From a virus: 22,816 bases of DNA. The position numbers were made by a program, and so were the translations under genes. The stretch spans positions 1-22,816 of the IMG/VR virus record IMGVR_UViG_3300027973_000229, one strand, 5' to 3'. The notes beneath the pieces are model-generated. The model was not told the origin of the DNA and did not search any database. It worked only from the letters and a program-made list of their open reading frames with translations. Shown piece after piece: positions 9,331-18,187 of the stretch. The first letter of the stretch is position 1. The number at the start of each line of letters is the position of its first letter.

Positions 9331-9343
9331 TTCTAACTATTTA
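9324..9343. terminator. Bidirectional terminator between convergent genes
   Basis: TAAATAGT-TCTA-ACTATTTA, an 8-bp perfect stem with a 4-nt loop. Read on the - strand it is followed by TTCTTTTT; on the + strand it is followed by AAACTTTT. The stem contains the stop codons of both convergent genes. Confidence 0.8.
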
Positions 9344-10008
9344 AAACTTTTACATTCTTTTAGTAAACTATTATATATGCTATATGAATCAAAAAGATTA
9401 CGCTTAGAAACCTGCTCTCGCACAAAGTTATAGTTATAAAAAACTTTTGAAGATTTTAAAAAACTAGTAGTTAAGTTATCTTTTATAGAATATTTATAGT
9501 CGGTGCTTATAATTTTTTTCCCAGTTTCTTTACTGATATGATTTACAATTTTATGCCTATCTAAATTTATATCTTCATAATTTAATATAAGTTCGCAAAG
9601 TTTTGGGACATTATGATGAAAAATATTATATTGCCTTATACGACTTTCAACGTTATCATCTATATATTTTTCTAAATCAACTTTATCTTTTAAGTAGAAA
9701 TATTCTTGAACTAACATTGATGAGATTGTGTCAATAGGATCTCTTAATATATTAACTATATAGTCTTCATCTTTAAAAAAAATTTTATTCATTTTCCAAT
9801 AATATTCTCTTGGCAAATTTGCAATATCATTTCCTGGTGGTTCATTAACAATATGAGTTTTATAAACATTTTTTCCAAAAGAAATATGAAATATCCACCA
9901 GAGATATGTAGATCCCGTTCTTGGAAATGTTGCTACATGAATTTTACCTTCTGACAAGTTTTTAGAATAAGTGTCAATTTGATTGCGTTCTACATAATTA
10001 TTATTCAT
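9337..10008 (-). CDS. Sulfotransferase-like P-loop protein (1)
   Basis: 223 residues. The PAPS 5'-phosphosulfate-binding loop is visible as ATFPRTGSTYLWW (residues about 25-37), and the 3'-phosphate-binding motif as NILRDPIDTISSM (about 87-99). Both are the diagnostic elements of the sulfotransferase fold. No membrane segment is present, so the protein is probably soluble. The acceptor is unknown; candidates are host or virion glycans or a metabolite. It has its own promoter (TTGTAA-N17-TATAAT) and a GGAG ribosome site. Two more distant relatives are at 12294-13443. Confidence 0.8.
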   Translation of the reverse strand: MNNNYVERNQIDTYSKNLSEGKIHVATFPRTGSTYLWWIFHISFGKNVYKTHIVNEPPGNDIANLPREYYWKMNKIFFKDEDYIVNILRDPIDTISSMLVQEYFYLKDKVDLEKYIDDNVESRIRQYNIFHHNVPKLCELILNYEDINLDRHKIVNHISKETGKKIISTDYKYSIKDNLTTSFLKSSKVFYNYNFVREQVSKRNLFDSYSIYNSLLKECKSFK

Positions 10009-10026
10009 CTATATTCTCCAATTACA

Positions 10027-10055
10027 ATTATATATTGTATTTTACCTTATTACAA
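10027..10055 (-). promoter_or_regulatory. Promoter of sulfotransferase-like gene 1
   Basis: TTGTAA (10055-10050), a 17-nt spacer and TATAAT (10032-10027) on the - strand. Unlike most - strand genes here, this one has a leader with GGAG before the ATG at 10008. Confidence 0.72.
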
Positions 10056-10060
10056 TATTG

Positions 10061-10133
10061 CGTCCCCAACGGGATTTGAACCCGTGTTAACGCCGTGAAA
10101 GGGCGACGTCCTAGGCCACTAGACGATGGGGAC
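10061..10133 (-). tRNA. tRNA-Glu (TTC)
   Basis: 73 nt. The acceptor arms GTCCCCA and TGGGGAC pair perfectly. The anticodon loop CTTTCAC carries TTC, the T-arm contains GGTTCAAATCC, and the discriminator is G. No CCA is encoded. It is last in a row of four tRNA genes. Confidence 0.95.
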
Positions 10134-10134
10134 C

Positions 10135-10208
10135 TGGAGCGAGTGACCAGAATTGAACTGGCACAACCAACTTGGAAGGATGGTGCACTACCATTATGCA
10201 ACACTCGC
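10135..10208 (-). tRNA. tRNA-Gly (TCC), CCA encoded
   Basis: The acceptor GCGAGTG pairs with CACTCGC, and the anticodon loop CTTCCAA gives TCC. The T-arm is CCAGTTCAATTCTGG and the discriminator is T. It is followed by a genomic CCA (10137-10135), unlike the other tRNAs in the window. Confidence 0.94.
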
Positions 10209-10212
10209 CTTG

Positions 10213-10284
10213 TATCCCTGGTAGGATTCGAACCTACGGCCTACACCTTAGAAGGGTGTCACTCTTCCACTGAGTTACAGAGAT
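10213..10284 (-). tRNA. tRNA-Arg (TCT)
   Basis: 72 nt. The acceptor ATCTCTG pairs with CAGGGAT (one G-U), and the anticodon loop CTTCTAA gives TCT, which reads AGA/AGG. The T-arm contains GTAGGTTCGAATCCTAC. No CCA is encoded. AGA is a frequent arginine codon in AT-rich phage genes, so this tRNA could support phage translation. Confidence 0.94.
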
Positions 10285-10288
10285 ATAG

Positions 10289-10362
10289 TACACCAGGTAG
10301 GACTTGAACCTACGATAGCCGAATTATGAGTTCGGTGCCTTAACCAACTTGGCTACTGGTGC
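10289..10362 (-). tRNA. tRNA with CAT anticodon (Met or Ile2)
   Basis: 74 nt. The acceptor GCACCAG pairs with CTGGTGT with a terminal G-U pair. The anticodon stem is CCGAA/TTCGG with loop CTCATAA, and the T-arm contains GTAGGTTCAAGTCCTAC. The C1-A72 mismatch of initiators is absent, so this is an elongator Met or a lysidine-modified Ile tRNA; the sequence alone does not settle which. Its 5' end overlaps the end of the nuclease gene by 23 nt. Confidence 0.92.
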
Positions 10363-10774
10363 TTAAAATTTCTATGTATCTAACTTCATCAATAATTTTA
10401 TATTTTAATGCAGTTTTAATCATCTGATCAGAATAACTTCCTAATTCAGGTTTTGCTGAAAAATATACAACATAATAAATATTATTAAATGTTTTTATTA
10501 AAGCACCATTTGCAATTGCTTTTTTTACACTATCTGTTCTTTGTGCTCCTGGTCGTTTTCCTTCACCAACGTTACCGCCTTTTGCTTCTACATATTCTAC
10601 ATTTGTATCTGATTGCGCTTTAAAGTCTACTTCACACCCAGTACCAACAAAAAAATAATTTCTATCAATAACACCAAATCCACGACTAACCAAGTCTTCA
10701 TATACTGCATCTTCAAATTGATCTCCGCTTTTTTTAGATTCTGATTGAAAGTCTATACGCCATGGATAAGGCAT
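10340..10774 (-). CDS. PD-(D/E)XK-like endonuclease
   Basis: 144 residues from the ATG at 10774, which has AAAGGA upstream and lies 1 nt after the HAD stop; an in-frame ATG at 10792 would add six residues. The sequence FEDAVYEDLVSRGFGVIDRN, then GCEVDFKAQ and VEYVEAKGG, gives the E...D...ExK layout of the restriction-endonuclease-like fold, with a later RTDSVKKAIANG helix. Related phage proteins act in DNA processing or host DNA degradation. The last eight codons run into the tRNA(CAT) gene, so its 3' end and the tRNA 5' end share sequence. Confidence 0.72.
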   Translation of the reverse strand: MPYPWRIDFQSESKKSGDQFEDAVYEDLVSRGFGVIDRNYFFVGTGCEVDFKAQSDTNVEYVEAKGGNVGEGKRPGAQRTDSVKKAIANGALIKTFNNIYYVVYFSAKPELGSYSDQMIKTALKYKIIDEVRYIEILSTSSQVG

Positions 10775-10775
10775 A

Positions 10776-11237
10776 CTATCCTTTATTTCCATCCCATGTA
10801 CCAATTTTCGTAGTAGTAATACCATGCTCTTCCCATAGTTTAATTACATTTGGGTTATCATCTACTGCGTGTAAAACATTCCAATGTTTTTTTATTTCAA
10901 GTAATATATCTTTTTTTACTTCATAGTCTGACCTATTGTCATTATTTTGACGCATATATAATGCGTGGTGACCAATATCATTTTTAGCAAGCCAATATGA
11001 TGTTAGTCCACGCCAAACTTCTTTTCGAGATGTCACAATAATAACGTGCATTTGATCAAAAAAAGTTTGGTTTAGCATTTCAACAACTTCAAAATTTGGC
11101 AGGGCATCTATAGAGGCCTCATGAAAAGCCTTGTAATCCCTATTATGGCCACGAACAAGATGAATGTACGGATCTACATTGGCTAAAGTTCCATCTACGT
11201 CATATATATGTGCTATAGGCTTCATATTAATACTCAT
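10776..11237 (-). CDS. HAD-superfamily phosphatase, polynucleotide 3'-phosphatase-like
   Basis: 153 residues with HAD motif I HIYDVDGTLAN (D13, D15), motif II VIIVTSRK, a conserved lysine region (YEVKKDILLEI) and motif IV HAVDDNPNVI. The arrangement and size resemble the C-terminal 3'-phosphatase domain of T4 polynucleotide kinase, but without the kinase half. It would remove phosphate from nucleic acid ends or small molecules. The gene starts with a consensus promoter placed for leaderless translation and is followed after 1 nt by the PD-(D/E)XK-like gene, which suggests a joint role in nucleic-acid end processing. Confidence 0.85.
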   Translation of the reverse strand: MSINMKPIAHIYDVDGTLANVDPYIHLVRGHNRDYKAFHEASIDALPNFEVVEMLNQTFFDQMHVIIVTSRKEVWRGLTSYWLAKNDIGHHALYMRQNNDNRSDYEVKKDILLEIKKHWNVLHAVDDNPNVIKLWEEHGITTTKIGTWDGNKG

Positions 11238-11243
11238 ATTTTA

Positions 11244-11272
11244 ATTATACAGGTATGCTGCCTATTTGTCAA
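11244..11272 (-). promoter_or_regulatory. Consensus leaderless promoter of the HAD gene
   Basis: TTGACA (11272-11267), a 17-nt spacer and TATAAT (11249-11244), with 6 nt to the ATG at 11237. The -35 box overlaps the stop codon of the SGNH gene. Confidence 0.9.
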
Positions 11273-12273
11273 TCTTGAATAGCATTTTTTTTATATAAAT
11301 TATAAAAGAAATCTGAAAAATGATAGTGAAAATGAATTCCTGGATGAGCATTTTTTAAATTTTTTTTATTATTTATTATAGAATAATCAGATCCTTTATG
11401 CCAAAATAAACTATCTTTAAATTCAGATTCATGATCTAAAATACAATCTAAAGCATAGCCACGATATTTTGTTTTTAGATTGGGCGAATAAAAAGATGTG
11501 TAATTTTTTAATTTAAAATTTTTAAGACTAACTAATTTATCCATAATCATAGCAGTTGGTATATCCCATGTCGTCCAATATAATTTAATGTTGTTTGTAA
11601 AACAAAATGATTCTAAATTATAAATAAAATTTATAGAATTTAAAATTAATTGATGTGGGGAAGTTGAGTCTTCTATATATTTTTGATTTTCTATTTTCAT
11701 AAAAATAGAATTTTTGTAAACATCTACTATAGGATTACAAAATGTATATTGTAAATAATCACTTTCTATATCATTGTCTTTTATTGTTTTTAATTTATAA
11801 AATTCTTTATCTATTACGACCATACTTCTAAAAAAATCTGGAAATAAACAAAAAATTTCTTTTGGCATTTTAGTTTTTAAAGAATACTTAATAATATTAT
11901 TACAAATAGTTTCTACAGATGCACCAGGACTTCCTAAATTTATAACATTTTTATTAAGCCTATTGCCTAAAAAATTTGTCCACCTTACTAATTCTGGAAC
12001 ACCAATACCAAAAGTTATAGAACAACCAGCCCCAAGCACATCTGCATCTTTGTCAATTTTTCCACGAAAGCCAAAGTTGTTAATTTCGTATGTATTATGT
12101 TCATCAACTGTGCTAATGTTTGATTTACCATTTGGATATTTATCAATAACATTTTGAGCGTATGGAGGATAGAGGCCAATGTTGGAAGTGTTTGTAAAAA
12201 ATTTTGTTAGATACCAGTTATTTTCTTTATTAAACTCATAAAAACCTAAGATATCTTTTGTTAAAAAAGTCAT
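11269..12273 (-). CDS. SGNH/GDSL hydrolase-like protein
   Basis: 334 residues. The segment NNFGFRG is followed by LGAGCSITFGIGVPELVRW with the predicted nucleophile S85, then NVINLGSPGASVE, typical of the SGNH esterase/acetylhydrolase fold (blocks I and II). The C-terminal NAHPGIHFHYHF is where the family has DxxH; here the Asp is replaced by Asn, so full activity is uncertain. Such enzymes deacylate or acylate carbohydrates and lipids. The gene has its own TTGATT-N17-TATAAT promoter, which overlaps the 3' end of the upstream sulfotransferase-like gene. It may be part of a glycan modification set. Confidence 0.78.
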   Translation of the reverse strand: MTFLTKDILGFYEFNKENNWYLTKFFTNTSNIGLYPPYAQNVIDKYPNGKSNISTVDEHNTYEINNFGFRGKIDKDADVLGAGCSITFGIGVPELVRWTNFLGNRLNKNVINLGSPGASVETICNNIIKYSLKTKMPKEIFCLFPDFFRSMVVIDKEFYKLKTIKDNDIESDYLQYTFCNPIVDVYKNSIFMKIENQKYIEDSTSPHQLILNSINFIYNLESFCFTNNIKLYWTTWDIPTAMIMDKLVSLKNFKLKNYTSFYSPNLKTKYRGYALDCILDHESEFKDSLFWHKGSDYSIINNKKNLKNAHPGIHFHYHFSDFFYNLYKKNAIQD

Positions 12274-12278
12274 ATTTG

Positions 12279-12307
12279 ATTATATCATTTTTGCTATAAA
12301 AAATCAA
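12279..12307 (-). promoter_or_regulatory. Leaderless promoter of the SGNH gene
   Basis: TTGATT (12307-12302), a 17-nt spacer and TATAAT (12284-12279), with 5 nt to the ATG at 12273. The -35 box lies within the last codons of the upstream gene. Confidence 0.82.
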
Positions 12308-12896
12308 GTTGGCGTTTGTATATATTTAACTTACACTCATTGTATTCATCAGAAACAGAATTAAAAATATCATTATTTATATAATTTGAAATTTTACTAT
12401 ATATTTCTAAATTTTTTGATGAAGGTAAAAAAATCTGTCGTTTATTCATTAATTTATTATTTAAATTTTTTTGCTTTATTTTAGCATTAGGAAAGTTAAA
12501 ATCTTCATGATGTCCACATTCTTGTAAAAATATTTTAAAAGTTTCTTTTGAATTTTCAGTAATTTGCTCAAATGTAAAAGGGATAATTCTATTTATATTT
12601 TTATTTAATAACGCTATATATTCTTTAAAAGAATCAATAGATTTTTGATAGTCTAATTTAATAACCTGATCAATGTCGTATTGCATATCAAAGATACTCA
12701 TAGATATGTCTGAAATTATTGCATCCTTTGGGTTTCTTAGAATTGAAACAGTAACAGAGTTATAAATATCTTTATTTAGTTCCTGCCATGATTTTTTATG
12801 AATATTAATATTAGGAACAATTTGTGCAGTATTATAAATTATAAAATTACTAGCAGATCTAGCATAACTTTTAACAAACAAATCTTTATATTTCAT
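12294..12896 (-). CDS. Sulfotransferase-like P-loop protein (2)
   Basis: 200 residues. The N-terminal SYARSASNFIIYN stands where sulfotransferases have the PSB loop (normally PxSGT), and VSILRNPKDAIISD is the 3'-phosphate-binding motif. The loop lacks the proline and glycine of the standard motif, so PAPS binding may be weakened or altered. It overlaps the preceding sulfotransferase-like gene by 11 nt in another frame, so the two are translated as a pair and may form a heteromer. The acceptor is unknown. Confidence 0.68.
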   Translation of the reverse strand: MKYKDLFVKSYARSASNFIIYNTAQIVPNINIHKKSWQELNKDIYNSVTVSILRNPKDAIISDISMSIFDMQYDIDQVIKLDYQKSIDSFKEYIALLNKNINRIIPFTFEQITENSKETFKIFLQECGHHEDFNFPNAKIKQKNLNNKLMNKRQIFLPSSKNLEIYSKISNYINNDIFNSVSDEYNECKLNIYKRQLDFL

Positions 12897-13443
12897 CTAT
12901 TTTTACACATTTCTCTAATGCATTTTGATATAATTTAAAACATTCATTTAAATCTTTATTTTTTACAGAAAAAACTATGTCGTTATATTTTTCTGTTTTT
13001 TTAGAAGTTTTTAAAAAATTGTAATCTGGAAGATCTTTTATAATATTATTTTTTGGCTTATTATTTAAAATAGTATAATTAGTTACTATTGAAACATATT
13101 CAATAACTTTATTAATATTGTTTGCTATGCTATTAAAATCTATAAAAGTATCTGCATTTTCTAAAGCAAAAGAATAAAATTTTATATATTCTTTTATTTG
13201 ATAATTTATTGAATTGTTTATTTCTAAATCTTTATTAAATTCTAAGTTCATTGCAACAATAGAAGATATTGAGTCAATCGGATTACGAACTAATGCTATT
13301 AAATAATTGTAATTGTTTAATTCATTCATTTTTTCAGGATTGTTTAAATGAGAAAAACCAAAGTTTTTTTTAAATGCATTGCTAAGAGTTTTATGTAAAT
13401 AACTTTGTCCAGATCTTGGGTAACTTATAATGATTGGTTTCAA
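12886..13443 (-). CDS. Sulfotransferase-like P-loop protein (3), TTG start
   Basis: 185 residues with IISYPRSGQSYLHK (PSB loop) directly at the N-terminus and LIALVRNPIDSISSI (3'-phosphate-binding motif) around residue 50. The start codon is TTG at 13443; the conserved loop begins six residues later, so the frame cannot start much further downstream. An AAGG lies about 9 nt upstream, a weak ribosome site. The rest is rich in Asn, Lys and Ile. It precedes and overlaps a second sulfotransferase-like gene and follows a zinc-finger microprotein with a leaderless promoter. Confidence 0.72.
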   Translation of the reverse strand: MKPIIISYPRSGQSYLHKTLSNAFKKNFGFSHLNNPEKMNELNNYNYLIALVRNPIDSISSIVAMNLEFNKDLEINNSINYQIKEYIKFYSFALENADTFIDFNSIANNINKVIEYVSIVTNYTILNNKPKNNIIKDLPDYNFLKTSKKTEKYNDIVFSVKNKDLNECFKLYQNALEKCVKIDEI

Positions 13444-13453
13444 AAAAATAACC

Positions 13454-13579
13454 TTATGACGAAAGACTTACAGAAAAATGATTTAAGCATACATCTGCCA
13501 CTATAAAATCTTTATTATTTAAAACTACATCATAGTGTGTTGCATCGTTTTGACAAAAGAAACATTTAGATTTTTTCAT
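13454..13579 (-). CDS. 41-residue zinc-finger microprotein
   Basis: The frame encodes MKKSKCFFCQNDATHYDVV and later VADVCLNHF. The CxxC and CxxH pairs with intervening A-T match the DUF7455-like pattern seen at 2145-3058 (CDACNAQA and FCGHH). One zinc ion is predicted. The promoter TGG-TATAAT ends 6 nt before the ATG, so the message should be leaderless. It leads the two sulfotransferase-like genes. A regulatory or protein-binding role is a guess. Confidence 0.68.
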   Translation of the reverse strand: MKKSKCFFCQNDATHYDVVLNNKDFIVADVCLNHFSVSLSS

Positions 13580-13585
13580 GAATTA

Positions 13586-13594
13586 ATTATACCA
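13586..13594 (-). promoter_or_regulatory. Extended -10 leaderless promoter
   Basis: TGG-TATAAT (-10 at 13591-13586), then 6 nt to the ATG at 13579. It lies in the short gap after the 2OG oxygenase-like gene. Confidence 0.72.
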
Positions 13595-14149
13595 TTAAAC
13601 AAAATCAAACCAAATAGGCATTATATATCTTGATCCATTTGCAGGTCCTACGTTATACCAATAATGAATATTTCCAGGGAATAAAACTAGATCGCCAGTC
13701 TTTGGCTTAAAAGATAAATTTTGATTAATAAAAGAAAGATCTCCACCTTCATAATCGTCATTAAGATATACCCAACCAGCAATATGGTTTGAATCTTTAG
13801 AACCCATATCATCTATTGGTATTGACTTACTATTATTGTGTTTCCATTCAGCAAAACGAGAATGTCTTGCCTTTAGTTTTACATTATATTCTTTTTCTAC
13901 AATAAGATTAATTTCTGGCACATATTTTTCTGGAAGAGAAAGTGAGTCATAATATACTAAAGACAGCGTGTTATGTCCAGAAGATTCTTCAGTCTGAAGA
14001 AGTCTCTTGTTGCTTGTCTGTGTTAATTTAATTAATTTAATAATATTATTACATTCATCTACATTTAAATAATTATTAAATATTTTTATGTTATCGGCAC
14101 CGCTACCTATTTTATTAAATTTTTCTTTAGTTGCTTCAGATATTTCCAT
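13595..14149 (-). CDS. 2OG-Fe(II) oxygenase-like protein with altered metal site
   Basis: 184 residues of the prolyl-4-hydroxylase-like double-stranded beta-helix type. Shared with its paralogue at 15276-15884 are YLNDDYEGGDLSF, KPKTGDLVLFPGNIHYWYNV and GSRYIMPIWF, which supply the distal His and the 2OG-binding Arg. The first metal motif, HxD in active members, reads PID in SIPIDDMG, so the first histidine ligand is missing. The enzyme may be inactive or use another ligand, perhaps the nearby SNH. The gene lies 1 nt after the SsuD-like monooxygenase gene. Confidence 0.83.
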   Translation of the reverse strand: MEISEATKEKFNKIGSGADNIKIFNNYLNVDECNNIIKLIKLTQTSNKRLLQTEESSGHNTLSLVYYDSLSLPEKYVPEINLIVEKEYNVKLKARHSRFAEWKHNNSKSIPIDDMGSKDSNHIAGWVYLNDDYEGGDLSFINQNLSFKPKTGDLVLFPGNIHYWYNVGPANGSRYIMPIWFDFV

Positions 14150-14150
14150 A

Positions 14151-15002
14151 TTAATTAAACTCCTTTACTAATTTTAATAACTGACTTATGTCTGCTTGAT
14201 CAGTGTGAATCATAAAATCATATATATTAAATTTATTTGATAAATCTCTAATTTGACGAACAACTTCTTCCTGTGTTCCTTTTACATGATGATGCTGTTT
14301 TCTAACTGGTGCATTTTTATCATACTTGATGTTTTGTTCTTCATCTGGATGATTAATAATAAGTGGATCAATAATAAGTATTGGTTTTACACGACTAAGA
14401 TCAATTTTTTTAAACTGATCTCTGTACAATAAATTGTCATCTACATATATGTATTCGCAATGTTTATTGGCTATTCTAATTGTTGTGTCTGAAGATCCAA
14501 CAACTGCCATATGGGTTTTGTGTCGATGTTTTTTCATCAATTGCATAATTTTATCCATCCAGACTTCAGATATTGCTACTCTTTTTTCTAAAGTATCAAT
14601 CAAACTTGAGTCGTGCATATAATGATCTAATACTATTTTTTCAGAAGGACCGTTGCCTTCATCTCCCCATCTTCCAGCAACAAGATTTACACCAATTCTT
14701 CCAGGTGCAAAACGATTTAATGTTTCACAAATCTTAGCAGCATAATCTGGGCTTGTTCCATATGCGGGTAAAGCAATAGTCATAATTAGTTGATTTGTTT
14801 TTTCTAGTGCTTCTTTAATAACTAAAGAGAAATCAATGCCACCTGGACCATAAGGAAGTAAAACAGATTTTACGTTAGCACCGTCTAGTTCTTTAGCCAT
14901 ATTAAGAATTCCATTTAAATCTAAGTTTTCGATACTATCGTTTATTTGCCAGTGTCTTCTCCACATCCAGTGAAATGTTATAGATTTATTTACATTATCC
15001 AT
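14151..15002 (-). CDS. Luciferase-like flavin monooxygenase, SsuD-like
   Basis: 283 residues with the TIM-barrel layout of bacterial luciferase-like monooxygenases: LLPYGPGGIDF, MTIALPAYGTSPDYAAKICETL, RFAPGRIGVNLVAGRWGDEG and a late AVVGSSDTTIRIA. The AxxxGxxSPxxAAK and GRxxxNxVxG segments are those of the alkanesulfonate monooxygenase subgroup, which uses reduced FMN and oxygen to cleave C-S bonds and release sulfite. It is somewhat shorter than SsuD (about 380 residues) and lacks part of the C-terminus. The substrate is not determinable. Such enzymes are unusual in phages. It is coupled to small neighbours and to a 2OG oxygenase-like gene. Confidence 0.82.
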   Translation of the reverse strand: MDNVNKSITFHWMWRRHWQINDSIENLDLNGILNMAKELDGANVKSVLLPYGPGGIDFSLVIKEALEKTNQLIMTIALPAYGTSPDYAAKICETLNRFAPGRIGVNLVAGRWGDEGNGPSEKIVLDHYMHDSSLIDTLEKRVAISEVWMDKIMQLMKKHRHKTHMAVVGSSDTTIRIANKHCEYIYVDDNLLYRDQFKKIDLSRVKPILIIDPLIINHPDEEQNIKYDKNAPVRKQHHHVKGTQEEVVRQIRDLSNKFNIYDFMIHTDQADISQLLKLVKEFN

Positions 15003-15261
15003 CTTTTATTACTTTTCCTTTTGTTTTAAACCAAGAACCAATTTTAGACTTTGCTACTTTAGTTCTTAATATTTCTCCAAATGTTTCGTGTGATATATCT
15101 GACCCAAGATACTCTTGACCAGTCTCAAGGTCTATCAACTTCCATTTGCCAGGAGCCTTTGTGTGCAGAATTAGATCAATGGGGTAGTCGTAATCATTTA
15201 CCTCAGATCCATCAAGAAGTTTTCTTTTTTTATTGGTTTCTTTTGATGTGCTATCTGTCAT
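14995..15261 (-). CDS. Small conserved phage-type hypothetical protein
   Basis: 88 residues, charged, with the core YPIDLILHTKAPGKWKLIDLETGQEYLG followed by SKIGSWFKTKGKVIKDG. It may be a small beta-barrel, but no function is known to me. It starts from a leaderless promoter and overlaps the start of the flavin monooxygenase gene by 8 nt, so it heads that operon. Confidence 0.72.
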   Translation of the reverse strand: MTDSTSKETNKKRKLLDGSEVNDYDYPIDLILHTKAPGKWKLIDLETGQEYLGSDISHETFGEILRTKVAKSKIGSWFKTKGKVIKDG

Positions 15262-15267
15262 TATTTA

Positions 15268-15273
15268 ATTATA
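15268..15273 (-). promoter_or_regulatory. Leaderless -10 promoter of the monooxygenase operon
   Basis: TATAGGG-TATAAT with 6 nt to the ATG at 15261. The same 16-nt block, including TATAGGG and the following TAA, precedes the gene at 15884. No clear -35 box is seen. Confidence 0.72.
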
Positions 15274-15275
15274 CC

Positions 15276-15884
15276 CTATATGATTGTAAACCAGATTGGC
15301 AGGGTATATCTTGTTCCAGAAAGCACTTCTTTTACTTCGTGTGCATAGTGCATATTTCCAGGGAATATTAAAAGATCTCCAACTTTAGGCTTTATAGTAA
15401 TATCGTGTGTAGCAAAACTAATTTCGCCACCTTCGTAATCATCATTTAAATAAATAAGCGTAGGAATATGGTTGTCTGTAACATAACCTAAGTCGTCTAC
15501 ATGTAGATTTAATTTAGTTCCTTTTTCCCACTTAGCCACACTAAGATTGGGCTCTTTTGGTCTTATTCGATCAAACCCATAAGAATTAATTATTTCAATT
15601 TTTATTTTATCTCTAATTTTAAACTTATCTTCTATACCAGTATAAATGTGCATCCAATTTATAGGATTGCCTAAATCGTCTTTTTGTGACTCAAAACTAA
15701 GTTTTCTGTTTTCATTAATGCTATCAAGCAAATATTTAATTTGATCATCGGATAAAAAGTTTGGTATTAGTTTAATATTTTCTGACGAATTTCCAACTTT
15801 TTCAAAAAAATCATTATAAGATTGAATACGCTTAATCTCGCTTGGATCGTGACCAACTGGAATATTATTAACTATGTGTGCCAT
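15276..15884 (-). CDS. 2OG-Fe(II) oxygenase (prolyl-4-hydroxylase-like)
   Basis: 202 residues. The metal triad looks complete: LNLHVDDLG (HxD), the distal His in FPGNMHYAHEV, and the 2-oxoglutarate Arg in SGTRYTLPIWF. YLNDDYEGGEISF is the conserved beta-helix turn. The family hydroxylates protein or small-molecule substrates using Fe(II), oxygen and 2-oxoglutarate and is common in aquatic phages. Its paralogue at 13595-14149 has lost the first histidine. It has its own leaderless promoter. Confidence 0.9.
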   Translation of the reverse strand: MAHIVNNIPVGHDPSEIKRIQSYNDFFEKVGNSSENIKLIPNFLSDDQIKYLLDSINENRKLSFESQKDDLGNPINWMHIYTGIEDKFKIRDKIKIEIINSYGFDRIRPKEPNLSVAKWEKGTKLNLHVDDLGYVTDNHIPTLIYLNDDYEGGEISFATHDITIKPKVGDLLIFPGNMHYAHEVKEVLSGTRYTLPIWFTII

Positions 15885-17286: not shown

Positions 17287-17394
17287 TTATTGTTTGCCGT
17301 TGCATTTTGGACATTGTTTGGTGATATTTTTTGTCCCATAGGCTACTTGATACATAGCACCACAGTTAAAACATAGGATATCTAGGTTAATCAT
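17287..17394 (-). CDS. 35-residue zinc-ribbon microprotein
   Basis: The frame encodes MINLDILCFNCGAMYQVAYG and ends QCPKCNGKQ. The CxxC...CPKC pattern is a minimal zinc ribbon. It starts 6 nt after TATGAT, indicating leaderless expression, and also lies at the end of the long leader transcribed from the consensus promoter at 17615-17643. Confidence 0.68.
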   Translation of the reverse strand: MINLDILCFNCGAMYQVAYGTKNITKQCPKCNGKQ

Positions 17395-17400
17395 TAATAG

Positions 17401-17406
17401 ATCATA
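17401..17406 (-). promoter_or_regulatory. Leaderless -10 promoter of the zinc-ribbon microprotein
   Basis: TATGAT with 6 nt to the ATG at 17394. No -35 box is seen. Confidence 0.58.
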
Positions 17407-17439
17407 TCATGGTTTTGACAATATTTGTTTAAAGATTAA

Positions 17440-17608
17440 TCTTACTGATAATTTAATTAGATAGTCTAGAAGTGGAGTGAAGTGGAGGATAGTGGGGGAT
17501 TGAGCATTTTTAAGAAGGGCGTCGTAATCCCCACGGCCCAAACTACCTATCCCCAAACCTTCCTATCTCTTATACCACATATCCAAACCTTATATCTCCA
17601 TAGCCCCA
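17440..17608 (-). ncRNA. Candidate structured leader or small RNA
   Basis: The transcript expected from the consensus promoter at 17615-17643 begins G-rich, with two AAGGTTTGG boxes and GTGGGGATT, and then turns C-rich (AATCCCCCAC, CTATCCTCC). GTGGGGATT can pair with AATCCCCCAC, which has one extra C, around a loop of about 25 nt. No ORF of note lies in it. The 3' end is not defined; it may run into the zinc-ribbon gene at 17394. Confidence 0.4.
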
Positions 17609-17614
17609 TAGCGG

Positions 17615-17643
17615 ATTATATACCAAACATTAGTGTTTGTCAA
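17615..17643 (-). promoter_or_regulatory. Perfect sigma70 promoter with an operator in the spacer
   Basis: TTGACA (17643-17638), a 17-nt spacer and TATAAT (17620-17615). The spacer holds the inverted repeat CAAACA-TTAG-TGTTTG (17624-17639), placed as a repressor operator would be. The nearest downstream ORF starts more than 200 nt away. Confidence 0.85.
17624..17639. repeat. Inverted repeat in the promoter spacer
   Basis: CAAACA-TTAG-TGTTTG, 6-bp perfect arms, located between the -10 and -35 boxes. Confidence 0.75.
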
Positions 17644-17673
17644 GTATATTTTGTACCAAAATAGTATGACAAA
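17636..17673. repeat. Nested inverted repeat upstream of the promoter
   Basis: Outer arms TTTGTCA and TGACAAA and inner arms TATTTTG and CAAAATA around TAC. The left gap is 4 nt and the right gap 3 nt. It overlaps the -35 box. Confidence 0.75.
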
Positions 17674-17679
17674 TTTGTC
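17668..17679. repeat. Perfect 12-bp palindrome
   Basis: GACAAATTTGTC, overlapping the right arm of the nested inverted repeat. Confidence 0.8.
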
Positions 17680-17792
17680 CAAATTTCAGGATAAATGTTT
17701 GATTATCGTAATCTTTTATTTAAAAAGATATAAAAAATATCTAAAACATCAGAAAATAATGTTTGGATAATATAGTGTTTGTATATAGGGTA

Positions 17793-18005
17793 TTACTTGT
17801 AGAAAGATCCATGGTTTATCTTTTGATCCCCCGCTTCGGCGGGATCTTCGATAGGACTATTAATCATTTGAACGGCGGGGGATGAAGTAAAGTATCTTCC
17901 TAAACCAATAGCAACAGTAAAGGAAGTAAAGGCTTGTGCCAAAACCTCATCTTCTTGTTTTGCCATTTTAGGATACATCATTCTAGAAAAATGTTTTGGA
18001 CTCAT
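17793..18005 (-). CDS. 70-residue hypothetical protein
   Basis: The open frame extends upstream, but the ATG at 18005 lies 6 nt after a TATAAT, the same layout as other leaderless genes here, and the upstream part is repeat sequence. The product starts MSPKHFSRMMYPKMAKQEDE, has a helical middle (EVLAQAFTSFTVAIGLGRYF) and a polar C-terminus (SPIEDPAEAGDQK). No family is recognised. Its 3' part contains a UUCG-capped GC hairpin (near 17828-17849) within the coding sequence. Confidence 0.65.
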   Translation of the reverse strand: MSPKHFSRMMYPKMAKQEDEVLAQAFTSFTVAIGLGRYFTSSPAVQMINSPIEDPAEAGDQKINHGSFYK

Positions 18006-18011
18006 AGCATT

Positions 18012-18017
18012 ATTATA
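18012..18017 (-). promoter_or_regulatory. Leaderless -10 promoter downstream of AGGTTTG repeats
   Basis: TATAAT with 6 nt to the ATG at 18005. No -35 box is seen; instead a CAAACCT box (18043-18037) lies about 20 nt upstream, where an activator would bind. Confidence 0.65.
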
Positions 18018-18065
18018 CACCTGATATAAGAAATAGAGGTTTGAGAGATATAAAGGTTTGATATA

Positions 18066-18175
18066 TAAGGTTTGTCTAAGAATCTGGAAAAATTTATACT
18101 CTTCGTAATAAGGTTTGGCCAAGGATCTGGAAAATTTTTTGATCTATCGTAATAAGGTTTGACAAATGTGGTTTG
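18066..18175. repeat. Tandem 43-44-nt repeat with AGGTTTG and TCGTAAT boxes
   Basis: Two full units (18066-18108 and 18109-18152) share TAAGGTTTG, AATCTGGAAAA or GATCTGGAAAA, and TCGTAA. A third partial unit starts at 18153. Further AGGTTTG copies lie at 18037 and 18054. The units are about 75-80 percent identical by eye. Confidence 0.8.
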
Positions 18176-18187
18176 ATATGATATTAT
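18159..18187 (+). promoter_or_regulatory. + strand promoter with no + strand gene downstream
   Basis: TTGACA (18159-18164), a 17-nt spacer and TATTAT (18182-18187). It would transcribe into the - strand gene at 18231-18524 as antisense, or make a short RNA containing the hairpin CCTGC-AATA-GCAGG (18205-18218). Confidence 0.6.

Follow-up and report, generated by a model that had tools for sequence, protein, structure and literature searches.

Iteron-type replication origins, such as P1 oriR and those of iteron plasmids, combine short repeated boxes with DnaA boxes, an AT-rich stretch and a promoter carrying box-like operators, and they are commonly autoregulated. In phages of the T7 phiOL/phiOR type, origins with promoters lie at the genome ends. 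The basal unwinding system (BUS) of bacterial oriC follows a rule in which a DnaA box is separated by a spacer of 0-16 bp from at least three trinucleotides with a central A, the DnaA-trios (PMC8287927). Phage origins have been predicted from DnaA boxes before (e.g., PMC11512268), and for the published BE1 phages read pile-up and two-fold coverage have located the genome ends (PMC5764925). Taken singly, DnaA boxes, DnaA-trios and iterons are known; in the open-access literature searched we found no description of the module reported here in actinophages, and as far as that literature shows the origins of large lytic actinophages are undescribed.

We analysed a window of 22,816 nucleotides, which is an entire virus record (22.8 kb), and within it the 793-bp interval 17395-18187. 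The region, as seen across the relatives of this virus, resembles the BUS in having tandem TTATCCACA boxes, a short spacer, AT-rich DNA and 5-8 central-A trinucleotides, where at least three are required. Unlike the BUS, it carries phage-specific boxes and a promoter alongside, the trio sequence of the family departs from the commonest one, 3'-GAT-5', and DnaA boxes are missing from some members, among them the window. Repeated short boxes, DnaA boxes, an AT-rich stretch and a promoter with box-like operators are shared with iteron origins such as P1 oriR, but here the boxes lie in both orientations over ~800 bp, the genomes are those of large phages with their own replisome, and no Rep was identified. 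As in the T7 phiOL/phiOR type, a promoter faces the genome end near a terminal repeat, whereas the host-type promoter, the DnaA boxes and the iteron-like boxes set the actinophage region apart. With the terminal-repeat boundary of BE-cluster Stanwilliamsviridae the locus shares synteny with DUF932 and the same order of promoter, boxes and TTACGA elements, boundary and DnaA boxes. The two differ in that the isolates have CTATATAC, CATATAC or ATAAGACA in place of AGGTTTG, that neither ATCAGTAA nor CTCCACT was noted in the BE-cluster region, and that the terminal repeat is shown in the BE isolates.

The DUF932 gene of the window has 207 relatives in the viral collection. Its nearest matches among named phages are in Streptomyces phages of Stanwilliamsviridae (Samistivirus-type), at ~52% identity, and no near-identical named phage was found for the window. 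WhiB genes are present in 13 of 14 larger relatives, indicating actinobacterial hosts, and protein similarity and actinobacterial markers together place the virus among Stanwilliamsviridae-like actinophages. BE phages are reported as presumed virulent and without an immunity repressor (PMC10690885); no repressor with an integrase or lysogeny module nearby was seen among the protein families found. The closest full relative, G001, encodes PolIII-alpha, a DnaB-type helicase, a DnaG-type primase and RecA (Pfam). DnaA domain IV, which binds DNA, was not found in any of the 14 relatives searched, and a phage-encoded DnaA was rejected. No Rep-type family appeared among the Pfam matches of the scanned larger ORFs of G001, many ORFs having no family. 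The window also contains a block (9337-15884) with sulfotransferase-like and 2OG-Fe oxygenase-like genes, and G001 additionally has genes for a carbamoyltransferase, a tryptophan halogenase, a cobalamin adenosyltransferase and a B12-dependent ribonucleotide reductase.

The interval had been described from its letters as dense in repeats and palindromes, and the density is real. AGGTTTG occurs exactly seven times, in both orientations (Table 1); none of 5000 dinucleotide shuffles of the interval gave seven copies (mean 0.11, maximum 3). Since some 7-mer, whichever it may be, attains that count in 16 of 1000 shuffles, a single sequence is modest evidence, and it is conservation that settles the reality of the boxes. 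Followed along the neighbouring - strand genes, the upstream boxes appear as CAAACCT. The reported 43-nt tandem repeat was recovered (18065-18102 against 18108-18145, 82% identity over 38 nt at 43-nt spacing), and the recurring block with ATTACGA on the - strand resolved into a bipartite, directional A element, ATTACGA-N12-TTTTCC, of which all four copies lie on that strand and one is a variant. Inverted repeats are present as well, although they consist mainly of opposed boxes and one short palindrome. The core ATCAGTAAGAT and the CTCCACT repeats lie farther left in the interval than any of the AGGTTTG boxes.

Table 1. Features in and beside the interval 17395-18187 (positions in the window; offsets relative to ATCAGTAA)
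Feature	Position	Strand	Remark
35-aa zinc-ribbon-like protein, next small gene, downstream of core	17287-17394	-	relatives in 32 loci
DnaA-box place (TGTGGATAA, mostly +16 and +27/28, in 46/54 anchored relatives)	17412-17438	-	empty in window
Invariant core ATCAGTAAGAT, part of DnaA-trio-like stretch	17439-17449	-	ATCAGTAA in 54/57 relatives; trio-phase conservation
CTCCACT repeats in exact 10-bp steps (17471-17477, 17481-17487, degenerate 17491-17497)	17471-17497	-	
A element at -79, ATTACGA (17522-17528) ... TTAAAAATGCTC variant	17502-17528	-	offset -77 to -81 in almost every relative
Downstream box array, two AGGTTTG (17584-17590, 17554-17560) past the promoter	17554-17590	-	conserved 'R' array
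Strong promoter TTGACA-17-TATAAT, 12/12 sigma-70, reads towards core	17615-17643	-	kept in 51/54 relatives
Palindrome CAAACATTAGTGTTTG inside promoter, box-like half sites	17624-17639		partly in an inverted repeat arm
A element copy 3, ATTACGA (17706-17712) then TTATCC	17689-17712	-	position -263 of conserved map
Small gene, 70 aa, between both arrays	17793-18005	-	tblastn matches in 33 related loci
Upstream box array, five AGGTTTG (18037, 18054, 18068, 18111, 18155)	18037-18161	+	'F' array, kept in 57 relatives
A element copy 2, ATTACGA (18103-18109) then TTTTTCC, within 43-nt tandem repeat	18086-18109	-	
A element copy 1, ATTACGA (18147-18153)-N12-TTTTCC	18129-18153	-	sequence and consensus
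Outward sigma-70-like promoter TTGACA-17-TATTAT, 11/12, overlaps a box	18159-18187	+	

Conservation of the boxes and their spacing in related phages, which had been named as one check on this region, was borne out. Six relatives read whole (101-119 kb) each have one large box cluster, syntenic with that of the window; in G009 an extra group of three scattered boxes adjoins it. In 57 dereplicated metagenomic relatives the cluster lies ~4.3 kb downstream of DUF932, and the 57 regions together contain 304 copies of CAAACCT and 332 of AGGTTTG (~7 expected for each), as well as ATTACGA, which reads 295 times with the genes and 3 times against them. The exact DnaA box TGTGGATAA occurs in 144 copies in 48 of the 57 regions, all in a single orientation, where 0.7 would be expected. 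With the invariant ATCAGTAA as position zero, 54 of the 57 relatives could be anchored on a common map, in which CTCCACT repeats stand at -48, -38 and -28 (123 copies in relatives, 4.3 expected) and DnaA boxes often also at +60/61. The core pattern recurs in at least 120 stretches of viral contigs. The region thus contains an array of short repeated sites, as iteron-type origins do, and judged by its sequence it is a real, highly conserved and mostly non-coding control region of a large actinobacterial virus family. A scan of genomes for the core, made with mimicry of a host oriC in mind, gave only a phage-looking MAG contig and a probable chance match, and that idea was rejected; the contig, assigned to Chitinophagaceae, has the core, boxes, CTCCACT and DnaA boxes (L255 2391-2415) and is probably a misbinned phage contig. 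Satellites of helper phages showed no similar region among the matches listed.

A DnaA box stands beside the core in 46 of the 54 anchored relatives. At least five consecutive NAN trios lie within 16 bp of a DnaA box in 45 of these 46 regions, against 2.3 expected when the trio side is shuffled; the 46 regions are homologous, so that these are not independent successes and no p-value is attached, the chance for a single region being ~5%. The BUS arrangement of at least three DnaA-trios no more than 16 bp from a box is therefore present in the same 45 regions. The middle A is conserved at 98-100% at five trio positions, while most neighbouring positions vary. We infer that host DnaA is the natural candidate initiator, because genes for a phage replisome are present and a phage DnaA was not found. 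The stability of the DNA was not diagnostic, since the best 80-bp segment of the region ranks at the 99th percentile, yet several segments elsewhere are less stable.

Exact DnaA boxes, often paired 11-12 or ~41 bp apart, were also observed in other early-side stretches of the genomes (G006 97018-98928, G009 1337-1348, G010 71950-77247, G011 94330-97202 and G007 101157-101198). They mostly adjoin CRP/GlxR-like palindromes (TGTGAN6TCACA), in some relatives just upstream of DUF932, and could be parts of host-sensing early promoters. The window itself has four CRP-like TGTGAN6TCACA sites with one mismatch (2050, 20602, 21295 and 22577; 0.8 expected), three of which lie in the region of - strand genes upstream of the cluster. 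Phages of Klebsiella, Proteus and Lactococcus weakly match (E 0.009) a 41-bp segment with repeated DnaA boxes in MulchMansion (L262 1486-1526), a hint that unrelated phages, too, have such pairs of DnaA boxes.

The window and seven other anchored relatives have no exact DnaA box TTATCCACA at the core, and the preliminary description could not have seen these boxes because the genome of the window has lost them; the connection to the terminal-repeat boundary was likewise beyond its view. Here the window departs from the BUS arrangement that most of the family retains. In seven of the eight relatives without DnaA boxes CAAACC boxes stand in that place, and the window has there only the near-match CAAAACC. 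Exact DnaA boxes are all but missing from this lineage genome-wide: the 111 kb of G001 include a single exact TTATCCACA, compared with 6-9 in the five other genomes read whole. The lineage of the window may have switched to a mode that uses the box protein only, or it may have lost the function.

On balance, the region is probably an origin-like module for the initiation of replication in a Stanwilliamsviridae-like actinophage, itself probably virulent, and is situated at or next to the junction between direct terminal repeat and unique sequence. In the usual form of this module, host DnaA would bind the tandem TTATCCACA boxes and extend onto the adjacent DnaA-trio-like AT-rich core (...NAN-NAN-CAG-TAA-GAT), opening the DNA. 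The AGGTTTG/CAAACCT boxes would be bound by a phage-encoded protein in two roles, that of iterons and that of operators for the strong promoter facing the core, and once the origin had fired, the phage DnaB, DnaG and PolIII-alpha would replicate the genome. In the lineage of the window, where the docking boxes for DnaA are gone, the box-binding phage protein presumably docks alone. The origin or switch region with iteron-like sites that had been proposed was in this respect supported in part: the boxes, their arrangement and the promoter are conserved in dozens of relatives, and DnaA boxes with a trio-like core in most. The DnaA boxes beside the terminal-repeat boundary of seven isolated Streptomyces phages also favour an origin. 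Against an origin count the missing DnaA boxes of the window and the seven anchored relatives, the exact DnaA boxes, some of them paired, in other early intergenic regions, and the lack of a skew switch. The expected change of GC skew did not appear at the site; skew follows gene orientation, and it was dropped as an origin marker. No box-binding protein, initiator or replication intermediate was identified.

The region may instead serve transcriptional control, with a phage repressor or activator using AGGTTTG as operators for the strong leftward and the weaker outward promoter, and with ATTACGA and the DnaA boxes serving other regulators; we regard this as a live, though less probable, account. 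Of the several promoters that had been described, two match the sigma-70 consensus closely and one is conserved, whereas promoter-like sites taken together show no enrichment, with 64 in the sequence and 67.4 in shuffles. In 51 of 54 regions, where 4.8 would be expected, the downstream array contains a promoter that matches at 10/12 positions or more, and reverse promoters occur inside the F array in 19 regions (5.7 expected). The conserved sigma-70 promoter itself speaks for transcriptional control, as do the boxes, which lie downstream of it and in some relatives overlap its -35 element, and DnaA boxes in other early intergenic regions may likewise have a transcriptional role. In the window, genes on the promoter's own strand (the 35-aa gene and a tRNA-Arg) follow it, and the 70-aa gene comes after the upstream array. 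The 70-aa gene, present in about one third of relatives at 62-93% identity among the matches listed, matched no Pfam family; its conservation means that the interval, taken before as regulatory, is so for the most part, with this stretch coding. Transcriptional control, however, does not predict DnaA boxes at fixed positions and a trio-phased core downstream of the promoter, and BE phages are, as reported, presumed virulent without an immunity repressor. Nor does it predict the arrangement in the isolates, where the conserved promoter reads towards the terminal-repeat boundary and on towards genes of the opposite strand; there it is unlikely to serve genes as mRNA, because those genes are on the opposite strand. 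RNAalifold detected no conserved RNA structure of the transcript in 54-sequence alignments (a weak negative, run without a positive control), and an Rfam scan returned tRNA only.

Packaging or processing of the terminal repeat, in which the repeats would bind a terminase or maturation protein cutting at the repeat boundary, is a still less probable, though live, account. It draws on isolated Streptomyces BE phages, whose non-coding region next to DUF932 is conserved, with 86 records matching that of NootNoot. In seven isolates of Stanwilliamsviridae type, position 1 of the record, which marks the genome end, falls within the homologous region, in each case immediately before YATTACACA (orientation as used here), and the ~11-kb direct terminal repeat has its boundary there. 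One or more exact DnaA boxes stand 58-95 bp outside the terminal repeat in all seven, TTACGA elements lie on the repeat side, and each isolate lineage repeats a box of its own, in both orientations. In NootNoot the pair at the boundary is the only close exact DnaA-box pair in the 96 of 131 kb examined. Six metagenomic viral sequences (L144, L171, L179, L184, L231 and L235) start 19-81 bp before ATCAGTAA, and none of them has its end in the 150 bp that follow it; for L184, L231 and L235 the start may lie inside a longer contig. These starts may possibly be a trace of a genome terminus, at which they hint weakly. DnaA boxes and a promoter would, however, be unexpected at a packaging site, contigs bearing DUF932 show no pile-up of ends there (two further contig-end scans were too specific), and the box sequences differ between lineages, unlike the boundary sequence, which the isolates conserve. 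The evidence for a terminal repeat comes from the isolates and none from the window's own group, for which such a junction would be an extrapolation. Finally, an accident of composition, in which AT-rich intergenic DNA and a tandem repeat made by slippage have no function, could draw on the 1.6% of shuffles in which some 7-mer attains seven copies, but it is refuted: dozens of divergent genomes conserve the sequence, the order and the spacing, and the isolates, a separate group, conserve the architecture.

An origin at the terminal-repeat junction accounts for more of the elements than these alternatives, because it covers the DnaA boxes, the trio-like core, the iteron-like boxes and a promoter that in the isolates has no evident gene to serve. 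Regulation through operators does not exclude an origin, given the autoregulation common among iteron origins; it and terminal-repeat processing are both compatible with one, and origin and terminus could share the site. More speculatively, large virulent actinophages with a PolIII-type replisome of their own might possess, at the junction of the terminal repeat, a copy of the system that unwinds bacterial chromosomes, where host DnaA would start replication and may drive duplication of the ~11-kb repeat, and a fast-changing pair of phage box and initiator might be able to replace DnaA, as in the lineage of the window. If this is true, the borrowing of host DnaA by virulent phages would become directly testable in laboratory Streptomyces phages, as would the regeneration of very long terminal repeats. 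Lineages with or without DnaA boxes, and lineages with different boxes, form a natural experiment with built-in contrasts, and co-variation across them would offer a route to the box-binding protein.
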